From contig NZ_JAKFUM010000015.1 of NCBI RefSeq assembly GCF_021732705.1, forward strand, positions 1-64,000: 64,000 bases of DNA, given 5' to 3'. This DNA is from Nevskia sp. (GTDB lineage: Bacteria; Pseudomonadota; Gammaproteobacteria; Nevskiales; Nevskiaceae). The stretch's first letter is position 1; each line of letters begins with the position of its first letter. Under the pieces are notes generated by a model. The model ran no database searches and had not been told where the DNA came from. It was given only the letters and a program-made list of their open reading frames with translations. The translations under genes and the position numbers were made by a program. Shown in pieces: positions 33,848-60,719 of the stretch.

Positions 33848-33871
33848 TTTGTGCCTAAATTTGTGCCTAAA
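33848..33871 (+). repeat. Two perfect 12-bp direct repeats upstream of integrase
   Basis: TTTGTGCCTAAA occurs twice in immediate tandem, between the tRNA terminator and the integrase start. The position suggests arm-type integrase binding sites or part of the attachment region; this is inferred from location. The upstream GTG starts for the integrase lie within them. Confidence 0.6.
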
Positions 33872-39711: not shown

Positions 39712-40542
39712 CTAGTGCCCTTTGATTCGGGCGACCGCTTCAATCTTGTCGATGATGGCTTTCACCGCCTGATCGATAACACTATTTTCCTGGTAGTCCG
39801 CTGGCGCTCCCAGCGTTGCGCGGCCATCGTTGACGAGCTGGTCCGCGTGCTTCCTCGCGCCTCGCTTGCTTCCGTTGTAGACCGCAATGGAATGGCCGCC
39901 CTGTTCTTTCACCAGCCTCATGCAGGGGATGTCCGTTTCACCATCCCCGATGAAGATCATGTTCTCGAACGGCACCGGACGTTCCTCTTTGGGCACGAAC
40001 TTGTTGATCACCGAGTTGTCGTGAACATCCAAACTACCCTTGTTGATACGGAACAGGTACTGGGTCTTGGTCGTGTAGTTGACCGCAAGCGCGGGCCAAC
40101 ACGCGACGCCGTTGTGATCGAACATGAAGCCAGATGCATAGACTTTGGTGAACTCCTTGTAGATCGGCGTACCCTCGACCATCTCGCGGATGCCGGAAGA
40201 GATGATGAAGTGCTCCAGGCGAACGCCCTTGCTCTTGGCATAGGCGTTGATCCGCTTGAACCAGTCCGCCACGCCTGGGAACAAGGTGATGTTTTTCCCG
40301 AAGTTTTTGAAGTCGGATTTGTGGACACGGATGTCGGCCTTGTCGGCTTGCCGCAACATGGCCCACATGTAGGCAAGGATTTGGTCCATCTCGTGCTTCT
40401 GCGCAAGCTCATGCACCGACTTCCAGAATTCCGTGGAAACCATATTCAATGCAGGAATGAAGTCATATTCCTGCATGTTGCCGGGGGCGAGCGTTCCATC
40501 GAAGTCATAGGAAATCGCCATGGGAATGAGCTTTTTAGACAC
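39712..40542 (-). CDS. HAD-superfamily phosphatase within the R-M operon
   Basis: A 276-residue HAD hydrolase. The nucleophile motif is ISYDFDGTLAPG (DxDGT), the motif II Ser is in FIISSGIREM, and the terminal acidic motif is IFIGDGETDIPCM. A helical cap sits between motifs I and II. A GTG start at 40542 has AGGAG seven bases upstream, inside the hsdS end; the two genes overlap by eight bases. An in-frame ATG at 40521 is the alternative. It sits between hsdS and hsdR, separated from hsdR by two bases, so it is an integral operon member. Its substrate (nucleotide, phosphoprotein or small molecule) is unknown; a defence role is inferred from position only. Confidence 0.88.
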   Translation of the reverse strand: MSKKLIPMAISYDFDGTLAPGNMQEYDFIPALNMVSTEFWKSVHELAQKHEMDQILAYMWAMLRQADKADIRVHKSDFKNFGKNITLFPGVADWFKRINAYAKSKGVRLEHFIISSGIREMVEGTPIYKEFTKVYASGFMFDHNGVACWPALAVNYTTKTQYLFRINKGSLDVHDNSVINKFVPKEERPVPFENMIFIGDGETDIPCMRLVKEQGGHSIAVYNGSKRGARKHADQLVNDGRATLGAPADYQENSVIDQAVKAIIDKIEAVARIKGH

Positions 40543-41740
40543 TAGCAATCTCCTGCGCTTGCTTGGGGATGGGTAGCCGCCACTGACCTGTTAGCAGCTT
40601 CTGCATCAGGCCGCGCTTCTGAGCACGGAGTGCATCGGCATAGCGCGTCAGAACGGCAATTTCTTGCGATGCGGCATCGAGTAACTGGACCAGACGCGCC
40701 TGTACGTCGATAGGCGGAAGCGCAAAGGTGAACCTGCCGAGATCATCGTAGTAGATGCGCACACGCACGCCGCCGTTGCCAGCCAGCTCGAAATGGCTCA
40801 CCCACTTCTGGGAATGACGCAAGTGATGCAGGTATGAGGGAAGCAGTTTCGATTCGTCGCAGGCAAAGACCACGTAGTCGGGGCTGACGAGAACGTCGTG
40901 ATCGAACGGGGACTTGGCAATCGACCCGATATTCAGTCGCATCGGGTTATACGCAAACCCCTGTGGCGGCACCAGCTTGTAGCGTTCGATATTGCCGGCG
41001 ATGGTTTCTTCTCGCATTGGCCGCATGCCTACACTTTTGGTGATGGCCATGACTGCCTCGCGTCCGAGTATCTTGCCGTTACGCGCAGTGAGTTCTTTCG
41101 TGACGTTCGACAGCTTTGTAGTCGAAGCTCGTTTGGGTTTGCGCAGTAGTTGGTCTCTAAAGCGGCTCAGGTAAAGGCTTTTGGCCGTAATCAGTTGCTC
41201 GTTTTTCTGGATAGCAGTGTCCCAGGCCGCATTGGTATTGACGATTACCCGCTGTTCAGAAAGTGGAGGAACCAGTATTGGAAGCTCTTTCAGCTGGCTT
41301 GAATTGATACTTGCAAGGTTCGTCGTTTGCTTGGCGCACGACAAAAAATAATTCTTGGCGCGAATGGATTGTATTTCGCAGGCGAGGAATTCAGGAAGAA
41401 GAACTGTGCTGTCGATTACCCGAACAGCAAACACATGATTCTGATGAACACAATTTGGTATGTCGCCATTCCAAATTGAGCCACGACCAAGTTTGTCGAA
41501 GTCGCCCCCTTCGGTTAGAAGCACATCTCCATTACGCAGACTGAAGCGCTCTACTTGAGTAGCCGGAACTTCGATCGTTTTGATCTCCGTTAAGTCAAAA
41601 TGACCATCTTGGACGTTTGCAACGCGAAGATATGGTCGCAGTACCGATGGGCCAGTTCGATTTTGGCTTTTTGACAAGCCGGTTTGAACATTGGCAACGT
41701 CGCGTAGAGGGACCTTGCGCCATTGGGCGGACAGCTTCAT
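40535..41740 (-). CDS. hsdS: Type I restriction specificity subunit (HsdS), two target domains
   Basis: A 401-residue specificity subunit with two target-recognition domains. The first runs from WRKVPLRDVANVQTGLSK to about residue 150, followed by a conserved helix region (SEQRVIVNTNAAWDTAIQKNEQL). The second (about 215-345) is followed by a matching helix region (VQARLVQLLDAASQEIAVL) and a C-terminal RGLMQKLLTGQWRLP. The two domains together would recognise a bipartite DNA site. ATGA overlap with the RhuM gene upstream. It is AT-richer than its neighbours, which is common for variable HsdS genes. A second, half-length S gene occurs in the same operon. Confidence 0.92.
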   Translation of the reverse strand: MKLSAQWRKVPLRDVANVQTGLSKSQNRTGPSVLRPYLRVANVQDGHFDLTEIKTIEVPATQVERFSLRNGDVLLTEGGDFDKLGRGSIWNGDIPNCVHQNHVFAVRVIDSTVLLPEFLACEIQSIRAKNYFLSCAKQTTNLASINSSQLKELPILVPPLSEQRVIVNTNAAWDTAIQKNEQLITAKSLYLSRFRDQLLRKPKRASTTKLSNVTKELTARNGKILGREAVMAITKSVGMRPMREETIAGNIERYKLVPPQGFAYNPMRLNIGSIAKSPFDHDVLVSPDYVVFACDESKLLPSYLHHLRHSQKWVSHFELAGNGGVRVRIYYDDLGRFTFALPPIDVQARLVQLLDAASQEIAVLTRYADALRAQKRGLMQKLLTGQWRLPIPKQAQEIASV

Positions 41741-42750
41741 TTCTTCTTCTCCCGCTTCTTTCCGTCTAATCGCCGCTCGGTCTGCTCCAGCGTCGCCATG
41801 TCCGCGGCATCCGCCGCCAGCCGCGCCGCTTCACGTCGCGCTGCATCGAAGCTCTCGTAGCGTTCCAGCGCCAGTTTTTCCGCCACGTCGGCGCGCAGCT
41901 TGCCAGCATGGGTTAGCACCTCGCGTTCGTTGAACTGCAGGAAGGCGTCGAGCTTGTCTTCCCAGTCGCGCATGGTCAGGGTGCGGCGGCGCTGAGCCTG
42001 ATCCTCGGCGTAGTCGAGGTACATGACGACGATGCGGTCGAGCGCCCCGATTTCTTCGCGGCTCAGGTAGTTCTTGGCAACGGTGACATCCTGCTTGCGC
42101 ACCCGGCCGCCCTGCCAGGTGGTGAGGCCCATGTTGGGCAGCGCAGGGTCGGCGCGGCCGGCGATGAGTTCAGGCGCGGTGTGGCCGGTGACCGCCCAGA
42201 GCATCTTGTTCTGCACCTTCTTGAAGAACAGCTGCGCAGCTTCGGACTTGCCGTCGTAGTCCACGGCGGTGGTGTAGATATCGCGGATCTTCTGGTAGAA
42301 GCGCTTTTCCGAGGCGCGGATGTCGCGGATGCGCGCCAGCAGTTCGTCGAAGTAGTCCCAGCCGCCGGGCTCCTTGAGCCTGGTGTCGTCGAGCACGAAG
42401 CCCTTGACCAGGTATTCGCGCAGGTGGGTGGTGGCCCACTGGCGAAACTGGGTGCCGCGCGGAGAGCGCACGCGGTAGCCGACGGCCAGGATGGCGTCCA
42501 GGTTGTAGTGCGCTACCCGGTACTTCTTGCCGTCGGTGGCAGTTGTCAACCATTGGTTGACAACTGAATGCTCGGCCAGCTCGCCTTCGGCAAATACAGC
42601 CTTGAGGTGCTTGGCGATGTTCTGCTTGGTGGTATCGAACAAGGCCGCCATTTCCAGCTGGCTGAGCCAGACCGTTCCATCGAGTGCGCGAAGCTGGATC
42701 GCAATCGAACCGTCGTCCGCCGTGTAAAGGATCAGTTCGCCGCCGCTCAT
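41737..42750 (-). CDS. RhuM-family protein
   Basis: A 337-residue protein of the virulence RhuM family. The N-terminal segment (TVWLSQLEMAALFDTTKQNIAKHL) looks like a helix-turn-helix. The conserved middle is YNLDAILAVGYRVRSPRGTQFRQWATTHLREYL with the DYFDELLARIRDIRASE helix. The C-terminus is Lys/Arg-rich. Such proteins are often encoded inside type I R-M operons between hsdM and hsdS, but their function is unestablished; DNA binding or regulation is suggested by the helix-turn-helix. ATGA overlaps with hsdM upstream and hsdS downstream show tight coupling. Confidence 0.9.
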   Translation of the reverse strand: MSGGELILYTADDGSIAIQLRALDGTVWLSQLEMAALFDTTKQNIAKHLKAVFAEGELAEHSVVNQWLTTATDGKKYRVAHYNLDAILAVGYRVRSPRGTQFRQWATTHLREYLVKGFVLDDTRLKEPGGWDYFDELLARIRDIRASEKRFYQKIRDIYTTAVDYDGKSEAAQLFFKKVQNKMLWAVTGHTAPELIAGRADPALPNMGLTTWQGGRVRKQDVTVAKNYLSREEIGALDRIVVMYLDYAEDQAQRRRTLTMRDWEDKLDAFLQFNEREVLTHAGKLRADVAEKLALERYESFDAARREAARLAADAADMATLEQTERRLDGKKREKKK

Positions 42751-44306
42751 ACGCCCAGTTCCTTCAGATACTGCTTCATGCGCTTGCGCACGTCGGTCAG
42801 TTCGCCTTCCAGACGTTCGATCTCCTGCTCGACGGCCGCCACGTCGATCTCCTGCTCTTCCTCGAAGGTGTCGACATAGCGCGGGATGTTGAGGTTGAAG
42901 TCGTTGTCGGCGATTTCCTTGAGGCTCGCGACGTGCGCGTACTTGTCGGCTGACTTCCGGGCGCGGAAGGTCGCGAGAACCTTGGCCATGTGCTCGTCAA
43001 GCAACGCGTTCTGGTTCTTGCCGCTTTGGTAGTCGTCGCTGGCATCGATGAACAGCACGTCCCGGCAGCCTTCCCGGACACCGCCCTTCTCTCGGGCGCG
43101 GTCAAACAGGAGGATGGCAACCGGAATGGTAGTGGTAGGGAACAGGTTGCCCGGCAGGCCGATGACGGCGTCGAGCAGGTTTTCCTCGATCAGGGCGCGG
43201 CGGATGCGGCCCTCCGCGCCGCCACGGAACAGGACGCCGTGAGGCACGACCACCGCTACGCGACCCTCCTGCGGCAGCGCGGTTTCGATCATGTGGGAGA
43301 TGAAGGCGTAGTCGCCCTTCGACTTCGGCGGCACGCCGCGCCAGAAGCGGTTGTAACGGTCAGCTTCGGCTTCGATCGCACCCCATTTGTCGAGGCTGAA
43401 CGGCGGGTTGGCAACCACCACGTTGAAGCGCATCAGCCGGTCGGCTTCCACCAGCGCCGGGCTGTTTATGGTGTCGCCCCATTCGATGCGTGCAGCGTCT
43501 TTGCCGTGCAGGAACATGTTCATGCGCGCCAGTGCCCAGGTGCTGCCGTTGACCTCCTGGCCGAACAGAGCGAAGTCGCGGCTGCCTTGCTGCTCGACCA
43601 GTGCAGCGGCTTCGACCAGCAGGCCGCCCGCTCCGCAAGTGGGATCACAGATGCGATCGCCGGGTTTGGGCGCGGCCAGTTGTGCCAGCAGTCTAGACAC
43701 CTGCTTGGGCGTGTAGAACTCGCCGGCTTTTTTTCCGGCGTCTGAGGCAAAGCGCTCGATCAGATAGATGTAGGTGTCACCGATCACGTCTTCCGACACG
43801 CGCGAGGGGCGCAGGTCGAGCTTGGCGAAATCACCCAGCAGGTTCTCCAGGCGGCGGTTGCGATCCTTGGTCTTGCCAAGGTTGGCCTCGGAGTTGAAGT
43901 CGATGTTGCGGAACACGCCTTCGAGCTTGGCTTTGTTGGCTTCCTCGATGTGGTCGAGGACGATGTTGACCAGATCGCCGAGGTTGGCTGCTTTGCGCCG
44001 TTCGTACAGGGCATGGAAGTCGGCAAGGAAGCGGTCGGTGACCTCGCCGGTCTTTTCATCCTTGAACTCGACGTAGGGCAGGATGAAGCGCTCGCGCTCC
44101 AGCTTGCGGCGGATGCGCTCCTCGTTGTCGCCGTACTCCTTCCGGTACTCGGCGTAATGGTCGGCCCACTGGTCGCTGATGTACTTGAGGAACAGCATCA
44201 CCAGGATGTAGTCCTTGTACTGTGCTGGATCGATGACGCCTCGAAAGGTGTCGCAGGCGGCCCAGGCGGTGTTGTTGACGTCTTGTTGGGTGAGCTGGTC
44301 GTTCAT
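42747..44306 (-). CDS. hsdM: Type I DNA methyltransferase M subunit (HsdM)
   Basis: A 519-residue N6-adenine methyltransferase that with HsdS modifies the recognition site. The N-terminal helical domain begins LTQQDVNNTAWAACDTFRG. The SAM-binding motif I is DPTCGAGGLLVEAAAL, and the catalytic motif IV is NPPF in VVANPPFSLDKWG. A coiled C-terminus (DVAAVEQEIERLEGELTDVR) contacts HsdS. Length is typical of the family. ATGA overlaps join it to the half-length hsdS upstream and RhuM downstream. Confidence 0.96.
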   Translation of the reverse strand: MNDQLTQQDVNNTAWAACDTFRGVIDPAQYKDYILVMLFLKYISDQWADHYAEYRKEYGDNEERIRRKLERERFILPYVEFKDEKTGEVTDRFLADFHALYERRKAANLGDLVNIVLDHIEEANKAKLEGVFRNIDFNSEANLGKTKDRNRRLENLLGDFAKLDLRPSRVSEDVIGDTYIYLIERFASDAGKKAGEFYTPKQVSRLLAQLAAPKPGDRICDPTCGAGGLLVEAAALVEQQGSRDFALFGQEVNGSTWALARMNMFLHGKDAARIEWGDTINSPALVEADRLMRFNVVVANPPFSLDKWGAIEAEADRYNRFWRGVPPKSKGDYAFISHMIETALPQEGRVAVVVPHGVLFRGGAEGRIRRALIEENLLDAVIGLPGNLFPTTTIPVAILLFDRAREKGGVREGCRDVLFIDASDDYQSGKNQNALLDEHMAKVLATFRARKSADKYAHVASLKEIADNDFNLNIPRYVDTFEEEQEIDVAAVEQEIERLEGELTDVRKRMKQYLKELGV

Positions 44307-44872
44307 GCGGTGGCCTCGTGGGCGAATGTCATCAGAATGTGGGTGTTGAGGCGCTGCCGCAGGGTGGCGATCTGGGCCAGCAGTGCTCGTTCTTGTTCGG
44401 CCAGGGCGGCGGCTTGAACGATGCGCTGCTGGGCCGTCAGCGAGGGCAGAGGTACGTGCAGCGCCTTCAAGGCTTCGGCGCTGATCATCCGCACCGAGGT
44501 GCCTTCGGCCATTGCAGCCAATTGGTCTTGGGTAGCCGGTGCGTTGAGGTACCAGCAGAGGTACGCGGGCAGCACGCCGTGGGGCCGGATCAGCAGCATC
44601 GGCGCCGAGAGTACTGCCGGACCGATGCCGTCCAGCACCTCGGCCGCGCCATTGCTGCGGCCACGTGAGCGGAATAGCAGATCGCCCGCGCGCAGCAGGT
44701 GGTGCGCCTTCCCTTTAGGCAGCGCCACCCTGATTGCCTCGTCGGCATGCAGCAGGTTGGTGTCGTCGATGTCCTTCATCTGGATCACCGCCACATCACC
44801 CTGCGGGTCGTGCTCAAGGCGCGACCGGAATGGGTAGCCCATCTGTACGTCAGCTAAGTCGCCAATGTTCAT
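44303..44872 (-). CDS. Half-length type I specificity subunit
   Basis: A 189-residue single target-recognition domain protein. It opens with DLADVQMGYPFRSRLEHDPQG and shows RAGDLLFRSRGRSN and TSVRMISAEALKALHVPLPSL, then one conserved helix region (AQQRIVQAAALAEQERALLAQI). It has no second TRD. Some half-length HsdS proteins dimerise or combine with full-length S subunits. Alternatively it is the remnant of an older hsdS. First gene of the operon, overlapping hsdM by four bases (ATGA). Confidence 0.85.
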   Translation of the reverse strand: MNIGDLADVQMGYPFRSRLEHDPQGDVAVIQMKDIDDTNLLHADEAIRVALPKGKAHHLLRAGDLLFRSRGRSNGAAEVLDGIGPAVLSAPMLLIRPHGVLPAYLCWYLNAPATQDQLAAMAEGTSVRMISAEALKALHVPLPSLTAQQRIVQAAALAEQERALLAQIATLRQRLNTHILMTFAHEATA

Positions 44873-44887
44873 TTTTGCAGGAATGCT

Positions 44888-44951
44888 GTTACGACAGAAG
44901 TCATGGCGTGCAGCTTAAATCACCGGCACGACCTAGTCAATATGTCGTAAC
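44888..44951. promoter_or_regulatory. Inverted repeat bracketing the R-M promoter
   Basis: GTTACGACA (44888-44896) and TGTCGTAAC (44943-44951) form a perfect 9-bp inverted repeat with arms on either side of the predicted -35/-10. This is a plausible operator for a dimeric regulator or a looping repressor; no regulator is identified. Confidence 0.55.
44912..44940 (-). promoter_or_regulatory. Predicted promoter of the R-M operon
   Basis: On the minus strand TTGACT (44940-44935) and TAAGCT (44917-44912) with a 17-bp spacer, about 40 bp before the half-hsdS ATG. The -35 is strong and the -10 moderate; this is a sequence prediction only. Confidence 0.5.
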
Positions 44952-45213
44952 GCGATTTCTGCAATGTAGAGAAAATGACTGGCAGCTTCCTTGATGCGGG
45001 CGAAACATCCGTAGGTTGCGATCGCCGGGAACCACGCCCTCACGCGAAATGCTTGGAGCGCTGCAATGTTTGCCGCCCGCACCTGGGTGTTCGCCGACGC
45101 GGGAGGACGTGCTCAATGGGCTGGATCTGCTCTCGGTCGGCTCGAGGTCACGGCGGCGAAAACGCATGCCGTCTGCCGTAAGCGGTCCACTTTCAGATGG
45201 TGAAACTGAAGCA

Positions 45214-45243
45214 CCTCCCATCTCGCTTTCGCGAGATGGGAGG
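45214..45243 (-). other. Perfect 13-bp hairpin with GAAA tetraloop
   Basis: CCTCCCATCTCGC pairs fully with GCGAGATGGGAGG; read on the minus strand the loop is GAAA, the GNRA type that caps structured RNAs. It lies about 170 bp downstream (minus strand) of the intron 5'-half-like segment, and could be a terminal domain or a terminator lacking a T-run. Confidence 0.6.
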
Positions 45244-45414
45244 CCTGAATTCCCCTGAATTTAAAAGCCCTAGGACGGGGAACCCCCGGGCCGGATTGAC
45301 GCTTTACCTCCTGTTCGCAGCACCGTCGCGTCACGGTGCCACTACTGCGTGGATGAATGAAGTTTTTCGATCAGGAGCCACCTGACCGACCGAATCAACA
45401 ACGAACGAGCAACC

Positions 45415-46052
45415 TCTGCTGACGCCCTTCGAGATCCGCAGTCTTGCGACTGCGGCACCCTGCTTTGCCTTACGCGATCGTGCCTCTGCCAGAGGACCCT
45501 TTCACTGCCGTAGCTTTTAACTACCGGTTCACAGGTTCACTACTACGACGCCTCCGTTCAAGCCGATTCTCAGCGCACCTCTCGATGCGTAGCCATGGGT
45601 GCCGCCCATGGAAAACCGGCCAGAATCCCAGCTTGGTGAAAACGGACTTTCGGATGGTTTTAGGTGCCTCCTGTGCCTGCCTTTGAGGTCGTGCTGATAG
45701 CCGCACGCAGCATCAAATTTCCGGTTATGAAGTGTCTCAGTTCACCGTACTTTTCCTCTCAGGACAGACGTTCGGATGGAGGTTCCTAATCGTCACCACA
45801 CCATCAACTGACCCCTCTGCTCTACCTCATCACCTCGTGCCTCTCGGTTGTCCTTCCGTCGTTAGATTCCCCCGCGCGATCCATTGCTGGCCGCGGGTTT
45901 CACGTCACTTCGGGCAGGACCGATTGCTGGCTGCCAGCCTGGCAAGGCACTACATGTTTTGGCGAGGGATTGTTCAGCGTATTTTCCGGTTGCCCGGATA
46001 GCCCACCGGCCGCATTTGCGGCAATCACGTTGTTCACTATTATCTGGCGCAC
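45415..46052 (-). ncRNA. Group II intron 5'-half-like RNA (domains I-III, putative)
   Basis: Read on the minus strand, the segment opens with GTGCGCCAG, the canonical bacterial group II 5' end. Short GNRA-capped stems follow (GCCGC/GCGGC; CCGG-GCAA-CCGG) and phrases I recall from bacterial group II domain I: a GAACGGAGGCGTCGTAGTAG motif at 45559-45540, as commonly seen just before intron-encoded reverse transcriptase genes. A GCAA-capped stem occupies 45455-45436. No reverse transcriptase follows. The identification rests on remembered consensus, not an alignment; a covariance search is needed. Confidence 0.5.
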
Positions 46053-46098
46053 CACTCGATCCTTGACTGGATCGCCGCATTCGCGGTCATGAATTGCT

Positions 46099-46172
46099 GT
46101 GGTCTAAGCCGGCAGTTACCTGCCTGGCTTGACCCCAAACCGGACGTGCGCGTTTTCCGCCGCATCCGGCTC
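46099..46172 (-). ncRNA. Group II intron domain V and VI (3' end)
   Basis: On the minus strand GAGCCGGA pairs with TCCGGTTT, with the catalytic AGC triad, a CG bulge and a GAAAA-capped upper stem: a slightly non-canonical domain V. It is followed by a domain VI hairpin (GGTC...GACC, AGCC/GGCT and GGCAG/CTGCC with a GTAA loop). A bulged A lies in TTAGACC, seven bases from a 3' AC end. This arrangement is specific for group II introns. Its 3' end lies 46 bp before the GTGCG 5'-like end, in reversed order compared with a normal intron. Confidence 0.7.
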
Positions 46173-46553
46173 TCTGCTTAAGAACCACGATCATCTGATT
46201 GACCTCCGGCTGGCAGGCACGGAGCACGACTGGCAGTCGTGAAAAGAGGGTGGCGCCCTCATCAAATGACATGGCTCACGAGGTTGTACTGCTCGTCACA
46301 TTGTGAAAGAACGCGGGCCTGGCGAGGCCCTTTCGTAGCGCGTATTGGCTGGCGTGCCACGAATCGTTGTTCGGCCATCCACGGAGGGATCTTGGGATTG
46401 CGTCATTGCTACCGCAATGCCTTATCCCCACTTCTATGTAAACGAGCTAACCTCATGACGTAGAAAGTGAAAACCCGCTTCGAGAAGTAAATCGCTCAGA
46501 TTCGCGAAACATCGGATACCGCTCTGTTGATTCCATCAACGAGCACTCCATCA

Positions 46554-47816
46554 ATGCTTCATCCAGTAACCGCACATCCCGGTATTGCCAGCATCCGTCG
46601 ATGCCAGAAAGCCATCGCCCGGGATTACATATTGGCAAACCTTTCACGGTATCCGATCAGACCAATTTTTGAAGACGTTGCACACCTTGTCGTCGAGCAT
46701 TTCTTTCCACAGGCGGTTCAACGCGGCAACACCGCGAACGTCTCCGACCTTGTACAACTCATGGTGCATGCGTTTGTACTCGCGCCGCTTGAATACCGAT
46801 TGCCTGGCGTCTATCGCCCCGACTGGGGCATCGGAACGGTACTGTCTTGGTTTCGACGCTGTCTCGGAAAGCACACCGGGCAATGGTACTGGTGTATGCC
46901 CGATGTGGTGATTGATCGTTCACCTCAGCAGGTGCATGATCAATTCACCAAGGTGGTGCATATTCGTGACACCTTGTTTGTCGACGGCGCGGTAGAAGCC
47001 CTGTGTAATCTTGCGTGCAGCGGCGGGCGAAAATCCGAAGCAGCTCGACAGGTACTTGATCCGTTCGCTGCGGCTTCCCTCGATATTTCCATTGATGACC
47101 TTTTCAATGTCCGAGCTTCTTCACCCATTCGGCGCAAACTGCGTGCAAGCGGGCGGTGGGTGGCCAGTTACCTCAGGAAGGGAGAACGCGCAGTACTGAT
47201 CGCGGACGCAGAAACTGCACGTGCGAGTGCATCCGGACGGTTTCGGTGGAATGACATCCGCGTCACACCGCTGCTTTGGCAAGATTACGTCATTGAGTGG
47301 ATCAACAAGGATAACCACCTTCGTATCCGTCTTGACCACAAGGTCATCACCTCGGCGTTGCGTGAGATCAAGCAACTCGATAAGGCGCACAGCCATCCTC
47401 GCCGAAGGTTCGCTGCAATCACCAAGTTCGTACATCGCTTTTTGACGACACACCGATACGCCACAGGTAGTCTGGTAGCACTCCAGGAATTCAATCACAT
47501 TGTCGGTAGTCGGGTCGCCAAGAGCATCACCGCCACAGTGCCATCCTTGGTGTACCCGAGCAGGTCAGTACAGGTATACGACAAGCTCGTATTGCCGATC
47601 ACCAATCCGTTCCTTACAACGAGTACTGGTGATGTCGCCGGAGGTGATCGGTCGGGAGGCATAAGTAATGCTACTTGGCTCAGCTTTTGGAATCCCTATC
47701 GAAGTGTCACCGGCGGCCTCTCGGTGTATGACGACATTCGTGATGACGTCGATTCCGGTTTGGGTGACCGGGATATGGAATTAGATCAGGGCGCAGAGGA
47801 GCCAGATCGTCGATGA
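46554..47816 (+). CDS. Orphan protein, 420 residues, no known family
   Basis: An open frame far longer than expected by chance at this moderate GC. The predicted protein mixes helices (HLVVEHFFPQAVQRGNTANV, CLGKHTGQWYWCM) with a central basic segment (SPIRRKLRASGRWVASYLRKG). RLDHKVITSALREIKQLDK follows, and the C-terminus is acidic (DDVDSGLGDRDMELDQGAEE). No enzyme motif, signal peptide or membrane segment was recognised. The minus-strand frames opposite it do not contain reverse transcriptase motifs. The start is uncertain (ATG at 46554 or an upstream TTG). It could be island cargo of unknown function. Confidence 0.5.
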   Translation: MLHPVTAHPGIASIRRCQKAIARDYILANLSRYPIRPIFEDVAHLVVEHFFPQAVQRGNTANVSDLVQLMVHAFVLAPLEYRLPGVYRPDWGIGTVLSWFRRCLGKHTGQWYWCMPDVVIDRSPQQVHDQFTKVVHIRDTLFVDGAVEALCNLACSGGRKSEAARQVLDPFAAASLDISIDDLFNVRASSPIRRKLRASGRWVASYLRKGERAVLIADAETARASASGRFRWNDIRVTPLLWQDYVIEWINKDNHLRIRLDHKVITSALREIKQLDKAHSHPRRRFAAITKFVHRFLTTHRYATGSLVALQEFNHIVGSRVAKSITATVPSLVYPSRSVQVYDKLVLPITNPFLTTSTGDVAGGDRSGGISNATWLSFWNPYRSVTGGLSVYDDIRDDVDSGLGDRDMELDQGAEEPDRR

Positions 47817-48122
47817 CGGCCTTGGCAGAAAATCGATGAAATATTGCGATATTTCGAATAATCGCGATCAATCATTTTCATTCGGTGAAATCTCGCGGAA
47901 TGATTGGCGGGGTCTCGGGATAATTTACTAGGGAAATCGCATTGATGCTGTTGCGAAGTCCTCAGTCGGTTGTCGGTAGCGGCATATTGAGCAGCGACGC
48001 CGCGCACCAAGAGCACGTCCACACCCTTGGTCAACTTGCGCATCCGCTTCACTGGTGTGTCGCTTCAGTATCAGCATGAAGAATCCTCCGTGATTCAGAT
48101 TGAAGCACATACCACTGCAAGC
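47817..48122. other. Intergenic stretch with AT-rich hairpin
   Basis: About 306 bp without a gene. A 7-bp perfect hairpin (GAAATAT-TGCG-ATATTTC, 47838-47855) follows the orphan gene by about 20 bp and may terminate its transcript. AT-richer than both flanks. Confidence 0.5.
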
Positions 48123-48422
48123 TCACTGGCGACGCATGCGTTCTTCCTTTTCTCGGAGGTACGCGGCGAAGTGCTCTGCCTGCATGCGGCGATAAAGTTT
48201 TTCTAGTGCGCGCGCAGTACGCCAAAACCGAAAGCTTTGGTTTAGGTAAAAGGACGCCAAGAAAGCGCTCCAGCCCGTCAGTCGGAACCGGTCGTTCGCC
48301 GCATCGAGCAGTATCGTTGCGGCGATAGCGAACGAGATCGCCGAGATCACCACGCGCGGCAGGCACTCGCGTTTCCACCGCATGAAACGCATGACCTTCA
48401 TGTTCCGTTCTAGCGGGGTCAT
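48123..48422 (-). CDS. Small membrane protein
   Basis: A 99-residue protein with a hydrophobic helix (VVISAISFAIAATILLDAA) and a second moderately hydrophobic segment (GWSAFLASFYLNQSF). A positively charged C-terminus (LYRRMQAEHFAAYLREKEERMRRQ) completes it. No family is recognised. Its ATG overlaps the stop of the zinc-ribbon gene (ATGA), so the two form a coupled pair. Confidence 0.65.
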   Translation of the reverse strand: MTPLERNMKVMRFMRWKRECLPRVVISAISFAIAATILLDAANDRFRLTGWSAFLASFYLNQSFRFWRTARALEKLYRRMQAEHFAAYLREKEERMRRQ

Positions 48423-48769
48423 GGGGTCGGCTCGCAGAAGGGCAGCAGGGACTGCACGCGGACGATCCGGTTTGTGTCGATGTCGAAGGCTGCGAACCGG
48501 TAGACCGCATAAGGCTTGGCGCGCGCCGACCGGGCTTCACGAACGAGCTTGGCAAGTAAGGCCCTCGGTCTTTCGACCGGTCGATCAGCGCATTCGCTGC
48601 AGATATCGCCAGAGATGGAGCTTCCATCGCCACCGCCGAGCGTCATCGTCCGGAAAGCCACTTTTTTCCGTCTTGGCCACGGATCGCGCAGGCTGACCTC
48701 GCCGCACCAGTCGCATACGACCCCGACCGCAACGGGGTTCACGACCGCCATTGATCGAACGATCTTCAT
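48419..48769 (-). CDS. Zinc-ribbon-like small protein
   Basis: A 116-residue protein with two CxxC knuckles, CDWCGE near residue 20 and CSECAD near residue 57, separated by a basic loop. This is the layout of a treble-clef or ribbon zinc site that could bind nucleic acid. The C-terminal half (YRFAAFDIDTNRIVRVQSLL) is beta-rich. A strong GGAGGAG lies before the ATG. It overlaps the membrane-protein gene by four bases; function is unknown. Confidence 0.7.
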   Translation of the reverse strand: MKIVRSMAVVNPVAVGVVCDWCGEVSLRDPWPRRKKVAFRTMTLGGGDGSSISGDICSECADRPVERPRALLAKLVREARSARAKPYAVYRFAAFDIDTNRIVRVQSLLPFCEPTP

Positions 48770-59330: not shown

Positions 59331-60719
59331 TCAAACGACATCCGCGACGCCTGCCTTCACACGGCGGGGGTCATTCAGAGCTTTCTTAGCTTCGACCCCG
59401 GCGGGCACGGTCACCGAAATGATCAGCCCTTCATCCGACTGCGCACTCACCGAGCCATGATGTGCCGCAGCGATTGCCGCCACCAGCGCGAGCCCGAGTC
59501 CGTGGCCACCGGTGGCGCGGCTGTCATCACCGACGCTGAAACGCTGAAACAGGCGAGGCAAGGCGCTCGATGGCACCCCAGGACCGTCATCGACGATCGA
59601 CAGCTCCGCATGTCCTGCTCGGGCTGCGAGCGTGACCTGCACCGTCGTCCCGGTTGGCGTGTGCCGCAGTACGTTGTCGAGCACATTAGCCAGCAGTTGC
59701 TGCAGCAGGCGCCGATCGCCGTTGACGTTGATCTCTGGTGCCACCACCAACAGTAGGCGGTGCCCGCTGGCCTCGAAATCCGGCCGGTAAGTCTCGACAA
59801 CCTCCGTCACCAGCTGGCTCAGCGAGAGCGATACAAAGTGGCTGCGCACCGCATGCGATTCGACTTCTGAGATCCGGAGCAGTGCGGCGAAAATCTCCAG
59901 CAGTTCGCGGGATTGATCCAGTGCGGCATCGATATGCGCGCCCGGCTCACTGGATGCGCGGGCGGCTTCCAGCTGGTTCGTGAGCCGGGTCAGCGGCGTG
60001 CGCAAGTCGTGGGCGATGTTGCCGGAGACCTCGCGCAGGTTGTCGAGCAGGCCGACGATGCGATCGAGCATCCGGTTCAGCGTAATCGACACGCGATCGA
60101 ACTCGCTGCCCGAGTCGTCAACCGGGATTCGCTGGCTCAGATCGCCATTGATGATCGCCAGTGCTGTCCGATCGATGCCGTTCAGGCGGGCCCGGGTGAT
60201 GGCCCCGACCGCCCAGGCGGCCGCGATGCCGAGCAGCAGCAGCCCACCGAAAGCCAGGGCGGTGACCTGCTGGATTGCCCGGTCGGTGGCGTCTACCGCC
60301 GCGCGATCGGCGGCCACCAGTAGCCAGCCACCGTCCGGCAACCGGCTGGTCAGCGCCTGCGCTTCGCGCTGCCCCTGGTCATGGCGCAGATGTTCGAGAT
60401 AGCCCGGCTGTGGCGGCATTGCCGCGTCAAGTGACCCCGCGAGCCGTTTGCGCCTCGAATCCGACAGCAGGTACACAAGCCGGGATTCCGCTGCAGCCGA
60501 TTCGCGCCGCGCAATCAGCTCCGCGACCGCCGGTGTTCCACCACGAGCGGCCTCGGCAAGCAGGGCGCGGGTCTCGGTCGCGATGCGGTGATCAAGCTGT
60601 TCTTCCAGCGCCTCATGCGCCACCTCATGCACCGTGGCGCCGATCGCCAGGGTCGCCAAGGCCAGCAGGATGCCGATGGCGGCCACCACGCCAGTGGTCG
60701 ATTGCCAGATTCGGCGCAT
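59331..60719 (-). CDS. Sensor histidine kinase
   Basis: A 462-residue membrane kinase. Two transmembrane helices (about 8-30 and 150-172) enclose a periplasmic sensor of about 120 residues. A HAMP linker (INGDLSQRIPVDDSGSEFD), HisKA with SGNIAHDLRTPLTRL and a HATPase domain with NVLDNVLRH, DDGPGVP and GHGLGLALV follow. The layout matches kinases of metal-responsive CusS/CopS or QseC-like systems. Gene order puts it last in the efflux operon, four bases after the response regulator. The degenerate IS5 element lies just beyond its stop. Confidence 0.92.
   Translation of the reverse strand: MRRIWQSTTGVVAAIGILLALATLAIGATVHEVAHEALEEQLDHRIATETRALLAEAARGGTPAVAELIARRESAAAESRLVYLLSDSRRKRLAGSLDAAMPPQPGYLEHLRHDQGQREAQALTSRLPDGGWLLVAADRAAVDATDRAIQQVTALAFGGLLLLGIAAAWAVGAITRARLNGIDRTALAIINGDLSQRIPVDDSGSEFDRVSITLNRMLDRIVGLLDNLREVSGNIAHDLRTPLTRLTNQLEAARASSEPGAHIDAALDQSRELLEIFAALLRISEVESHAVRSHFVSLSLSQLVTEVVETYRPDFEASGHRLLLVVAPEINVNGDRRLLQQLLANVLDNVLRHTPTGTTVQVTLAARAGHAELSIVDDGPGVPSSALPRLFQRFSVGDDSRATGGHGLGLALVAAIAAAHHGSVSAQSDEGLIISVTVPAGVEAKKALNDPRRVKAGVADVV

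Follow-up and report, generated by a model that had tools for sequence, protein, structure and literature searches.

Analysis of a 64,000-nucleotide stretch of Nevskia sp. (contig NZ_JAKFUM010000015.1, positions 1 to 64,000; hereafter the window) revealed, on its minus strand, what is probably a circularly permuted (CP) group II ribozyme that would back-splice, and whose likely folding helper is a divergently encoded protein with a predicted, catalytically dead maturase fold. The RNA is likely a new variant of the permuted class, in which domains V and VI (D5-D6) would be followed by a 46-nt linker, the 5' splice-site motif and the predicted domains I to IV (D1-D4). RNA features below are on the minus strand unless stated otherwise.

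First, a search of the whole window with the Rfam model RF00029 gave a match at 46174-46099 (45.0 bits, gathering threshold 40, E = 1.3e-5), and a 5-kb search returned the same match, spanning the entire D5-D6 model, with E = 1e-6. By RF00029 alignment and folding, D5 (46137-46174) contained an AGC triad and an ACG bulge, and D6 (46099-46135) had a GUAA loop and, at 46105, a bulged A resembling a branch point, seventh when counted back from the terminal AC. D5 was somewhat irregular in fold, with one bulged G and a five-base GAAAA loop. The 46-nt linker between the 3' and 5' splice-site-like ends (46098-46053), which is the predicted circle, formed hairpins at 46086-46075 and 46074-46057. Right after it, at 46052, began the 5'-end-like GTGCGCCAG (GUGCGCC, 46052-46046), which places the predicted 5' splice site at 46053/46052. 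These observations agreed with an earlier note on this DNA with regard to the D5-D6 unit ending at 46099, the triad, the D6 loop and bulged A, the 46-nt spacing and the CGATCC/GGATCG hairpin, which is the one located at 46074-46057.

Second, hairpins like those of several known CP RNAs flanked this core. The published description reports pseudoknots P2-D2 and P1-3' end for CP group II RNAs, and circles released in vitro (PMC8637638). We noticed that several known CP RNAs have GCCA loops in hairpins 5' of D5 and UGGC loops in hairpins of the D2 region and the 3' end, which, in our own reading of the sequences, may represent these pairings. The motif was noticed first in the known RNAs and then looked for in the window, with lengths and cut-offs set by hand. 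When a stem of 4 or more and a loop of no more than 8 were required, the 200 nt upstream of D5 contained five GCCA-loop hairpins, compared with a shuffle mean of 0.29, and none of 5000 dinucleotide shuffles reached five; with stems of at least 5, there were three against a mean of 0.12, a number equalled in 1 of 5000 shuffles. They included the P1/P2-like GGGCC-ucgcca-GGCCC (46315-46330), GAGGG-cgcca-CCCUC (46246-46260) and CACGAC-ugcca-GUCGUG (46225-46241). Downstream, a D2-like hairpin, CCUC-uggca-GAGG (45483-45495; p = 0.067 alone), had a loop complementary to UGCCA, and a 9-bp hairpin at the 3' end, UCGGUCAGG-uggcu-CCUGAUCGA (45367-45389; p = 0.004), had one complementary to GCCA. At least one upstream GCCA-loop hairpin was present in 12 of 18 known CP loci and absent from the other 6. 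Among 19 loci (18 genomic and one viral) collected by a D5-to-GUGCG pattern, 15 of them with the full 200 nt, none had such a hairpin upstream of D5. Three GCCA-loop hairpins with stems of at least 5 also occurred at two other places in the window (near 60500 on the plus strand and 28300 on the minus strand).

The domain I-like sequence claimed in the earlier note did not find the same support: the Rfam check that it proposed recovered D5-D6, but no D1-D4 family matched at E ≤ 1 over 43500-48500. Indirect support came from the minimum free energy fold, in which GCGCC (46050-46046) paired with GGCGU (45552-45548) as the predicted basal helix closing a D1-like domain (45548-46050). The missing match was uninformative as a refutation, because two plasmids with published CP RNAs, pTT8 (L007) and pPNAP05 (L008), gave neither D5 nor D1-D4 with Rfam 15 at E ≤ 5. 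Standard annotation may overlook the CP class, as both of these RNAs were missed. A tentative candidate for exon-binding site 1 (EBS1), CACUUCAU (45727-45734, at +318), complemented seven of the last eight linker bases, five of them contiguous, which is weak when taken alone. Eight known CP RNAs run through the EBS1 script had GGAAYCU at +318 to +373, and this was the top linker complement only in pPNAP05 and two Thermus loci (L032 and L034); the window had GGAACCU at +266, which was not among its top linker complements. A D4 closing helix across the permutation was rejected (p 0.2-0.7). A terminator-like hairpin lay downstream of the RNA (45213-45244), two such sites being found versus 1.5 expected in shuffles.

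The same order could also be produced by tail-to-head fragments, that is, a canonical intron that has decayed, its 3' end lying by chance before an unrelated or partial D1. The canonical type of D5 and of the 5' motif and the absent D1-D4 covariance match would fit such an origin, and deletion or tandem insertion could create the order; three pattern loci (L020, L024 and L026) each have two D5-D6 units on the same strand. However, RF00029 matched the assembly of 4,531,486 bases only once, at 46174-46099, with no second D5 within 2.6 kb downstream or elsewhere, and the assembly had no RVT_1 reverse transcriptase (RT). Moreover, CP-type GCCA hairpins precede D5 and UGGC hairpins follow it, and a D1-D4 half would hardly fit upstream of D5, because a conserved divergent gene starts 380 nt away. 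Thus, the permuted order proposed earlier was better supported than a pair of fragments, which we regard as unlikely, and with no D1-D4 match no 5' intron half was found at higher coordinates. Even less probable, in our opinion, is a permuted intron that was once genuine and is now an inactive relic, with the hairpins and the neighbour gene merely persisting. The single copy, the bulged G and odd loop of D5 and the lack of DNA relatives among 146 genomes other than the locus itself (four matches of 28-35 nt were taken as chance) are compatible with decay, but the D5-D6 score is still above gathering, no damage is seen in the branch A, the splice motifs or the hairpins on either side, and the neighbour gene is an intact open reading frame (ORF) that has relatives.

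The preferred reading, a permuted ribozyme with a protein partner, also draws on this divergent gene (46554-47816, plus strand), which encodes 420 residues, with an upstream TTG start possible at 46527, and whose relatives are 41-73% identical. The predicted structure model had an RT fold with a thumb, and, among the matches listed, the best predicted fold matches were maturases bound to group II introns; non-intron RTs, such as those of diversity-generating retroelements (DGR), defence-associated RTs (DRT) and retrons, also fitted the model. No conserved YxDD was found in the 13 family members, with a single unaligned YGDD in P0002 and an FIDD in P0005, and Pfam RVT_1 (PF00078) did not match the divergent protein. 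It is therefore predicted, on the basis of the model, to be a catalytically dead maturase-fold protein whose active site is missing. The earlier statement that no reverse transcriptase gene is present held in the sense that PF00078 was absent from the whole assembly (the same search matched in 3 of 14 control genomes), but it needs qualification, as the neighbour itself has a predicted RT/maturase fold. This protein could instead be functionally unrelated to the RNA, for example a domesticated dead RT-fold protein of defence that became a neighbour by chance. The fit of non-intron RTs, a type I restriction-modification cluster on the other side and a gene-RNA pairing known from one genome favor this view, whereas the bound maturases as best fold matches, the lack of a credible PADLOC match and a divergent position like that of the gene next to known CP RNAs, a gene whose protein model likewise aligns to RTs, oppose it. 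On balance, we give it roughly one chance in five. The restriction-modification cluster (39712-44872, minus strand), downstream of the intron, comprised HsdM, a RhuM-family protein and two proteins that matched specificity domains; pPNAP05 likewise carries a type I system.

To place the locus among known CP RNAs, we used the gene acpG, which, according to the available part of the published report, is often found near them in any orientation and encodes a protein without known function or homology, no intron-encoded protein being reported there (PMC8637638). The protein divergent to the pPNAP05 RNA (P0096) was taken as AcpG by place alone, and a tblastn search with it returned 26 plasmid records, 10 of the other 25 being fetched. 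Of 11 loci including pPNAP05, eight had a CP core on the strand opposite the acpG-like gene; five of these eight were picked by eye and used to build a model, and three were found by that model. L045, L051 and L049 yielded no core, and the L049 stretch covers just 109 bases upstream of the gene. The resulting covariance model of the CP core from D5 to the 5' site (R2; five proteobacterial sequences) matched 10 of 10 Thermus CP loci, all collected through their resemblance to the RNA region of pTT8 or as the pTT8 record itself, and 3 of 6 further acpG-like loci. Of the four pattern loci that it was given, it weakly matched one with a canonical-type D5 (L010, 17.4 bits). In the window, R2 left the locus unmatched, and its one hit, at 33849 (7.4 bits), was attributed to chance. 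Since R2 fails to match and D5, GUGCG and AC are of canonical type, the window core is, judged by sequence, outside the published CP family. A GGGCGAC 5' site was found in all 15 known CP RNAs inspected. Another covariance model (R1) was set aside for its poor consensus structure, and single-sequence nhmmer searches from Thermus RNAs matched neither pPNAP05 nor the window.

Several observations were made on acpG-like loci themselves. Ten E. coli plasmids (H135-H144) carry a gene for an AcpG-like protein that shares about 27% identity with the Polaromonas AcpG over 69% of the latter; the one plasmid fetched (L050) has a CP core divergent to this gene, with no feature in the PLSDB table, which lists no RNA genes. 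Gluconobacter and Novacetimonas plasmids (L045 and L051, the latter at 1583-2749) encode a 388-residue AcpG-like protein with a C-terminal extension, the CP core not being found in the fetched stretch. In seven Thermus plasmids (L031, L033-L037 and L039), the CP RNA is separated from a hypothetical gene by a ribbon-helix-helix gene.

Some points limit the confidence in a permuted ribozyme with a protein partner. Only a single locus is available for judging covariation and gene-RNA linkage. The number of UGGC-loop hairpins in the 800 nt downstream was non-discriminating (0-3 in controls, 0-5 in known CP RNAs and 3 in the window), and the R2 matches on three loci are partly circular; because of these last two points, our confidence was lowered slightly.

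Searches for relatives were mostly negative. No DNA similarity to the locus was found in plasmids and phages, and a looser search of E. coli and plasmids gave, among the matches listed, only the D5-D6 stretch, to canonical introns. The family of the divergent protein (A1) was absent from genome and viral contigs and, in partly overlapping sets of 194, 369, 85 and 398 genomes, occurred only in the source genome; a match in G221 (E = 1e-4, after ORF listing) and a broken frame in G541 were judged by eye to be chance. A tblastn search of plasmids with three family members found none, and a profile search scoring about 8000 candidates returned the same 13 proteins. One D5 scan missed even the D5 of the window. 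With regard to the pattern loci, 18 of 19 reached the RF00029 cut-off (L019 was below it). None of the 19 was accepted as a relative. Nine (L013, L014, L016, L017, L018, L021, L022, L024 and L028) were canonical-like, with a YxDD frame ending at most 41 nt upstream of D5, and L023 had a D1-D4 match upstream. In L010, L011, L012 and L015, D5 lay within 160 nt of the locus end, with the upstream side out of view. The other five (L019, L020, L025, L026 and L027), which showed no YxDD frame upstream of D5, may include a permuted intron. The paired D5-D6 units of L020 (639-703 and 1461-1557), L024 (4597-4695 and 7022-7122) and L026 (7536-7461 and 7047-6972) are possible tandem introns, L020 being an example of how a tandem pair appears.

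If the window RNA is a permuted ribozyme, A46105 would attack the phosphate at 46053/46052, and the freed 3' end of the linker would then attack the 3' site at 46099/46098, following the published chemistry (PMC8637638). The linker would thereby be released as a 46-nt RNA circle, with D5-D6 and D1-D4 left joined in a branched RNA. The GCCA loops 5' of D5 are complementary to the UGGC loops of the D2-like and 3'-end hairpins, and are predicted to pair with them and hold the rearranged domains together. Intron-encoded proteins stabilise the fold of their own introns, and the dead maturase is predicted to stabilise this RNA in trans. A broader proposal, which we put forward tentatively and at somewhat less than even chances, is that permuted group II ribozymes are two-part ribonucleoproteins, each with a divergently encoded dead maturase in trans, in a bacterial counterpart of the role of Prp8 at the core of the spliceosome. 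The window locus, whose splice sites are canonical and whose dead maturase is full-length, would then be an early or second lineage, and AcpG would be a protein of this kind reduced to palm and thumb. If true, this reduction would explain why AcpG has no known relatives. A permuted intron that has kept canonical splice sites and lies next to a predicted dead maturase offers a direct route to a missing partner and makes the function of AcpG testable. It would also be an example, from bacteria, of a rearranged ribozyme served in trans by a dead reverse transcriptase, much as Prp8 serves the spliceosome.

Finally, we compared the locus with its closest known counterparts. CP group II ribozymes (T-large RNAs), as described in PMC8637638, have the order D5-D6-D1-D2-D3-D4, a GGGCG 5' site, a 3' NU and a linker of 15-86 nt. 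The window locus resembles them in having D5-D6 before the 5' splice-site motif, a short linker (46 nt) with its own stem-loop, no internal ORF, GCCA-loop hairpins 5' of D5 with UGGC-loop hairpins downstream, and a divergent neighbour gene, but differs in its GUGCG and AC ends and in a neighbour gene that sequence comparison does not identify as acpG. Canonical bacterial group II introns (RF00029) share its D5-D6 match, GUGCG start and branch A, whereas the permuted domain order, with D1-D4 not upstream of D5, the internal splice sites and the lack of an intron-encoded protein in D4 set it apart. Compared with group II intron maturases and RTs (6me0, 8fli, 8t2r and the GsI-IIC RT), the divergent protein has 12% identity and lacks YxDD, and its gene lies outside the intron, on the other strand; a more distant relation of its predicted fold is the RT-like domain of Prp8. 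No significant sequence relation to AcpG (P0014/A3; probability 0.4%, E = 0.15) was detected, and AcpG (TTHC007 family) is shorter, about 260 residues against 420, its model aligning only to RTs, over 156-199 residues, with the aligned part beginning 77-152 residues into the chain. Nevertheless, like the window protein, AcpG is encoded divergently beside a permuted group II RNA.
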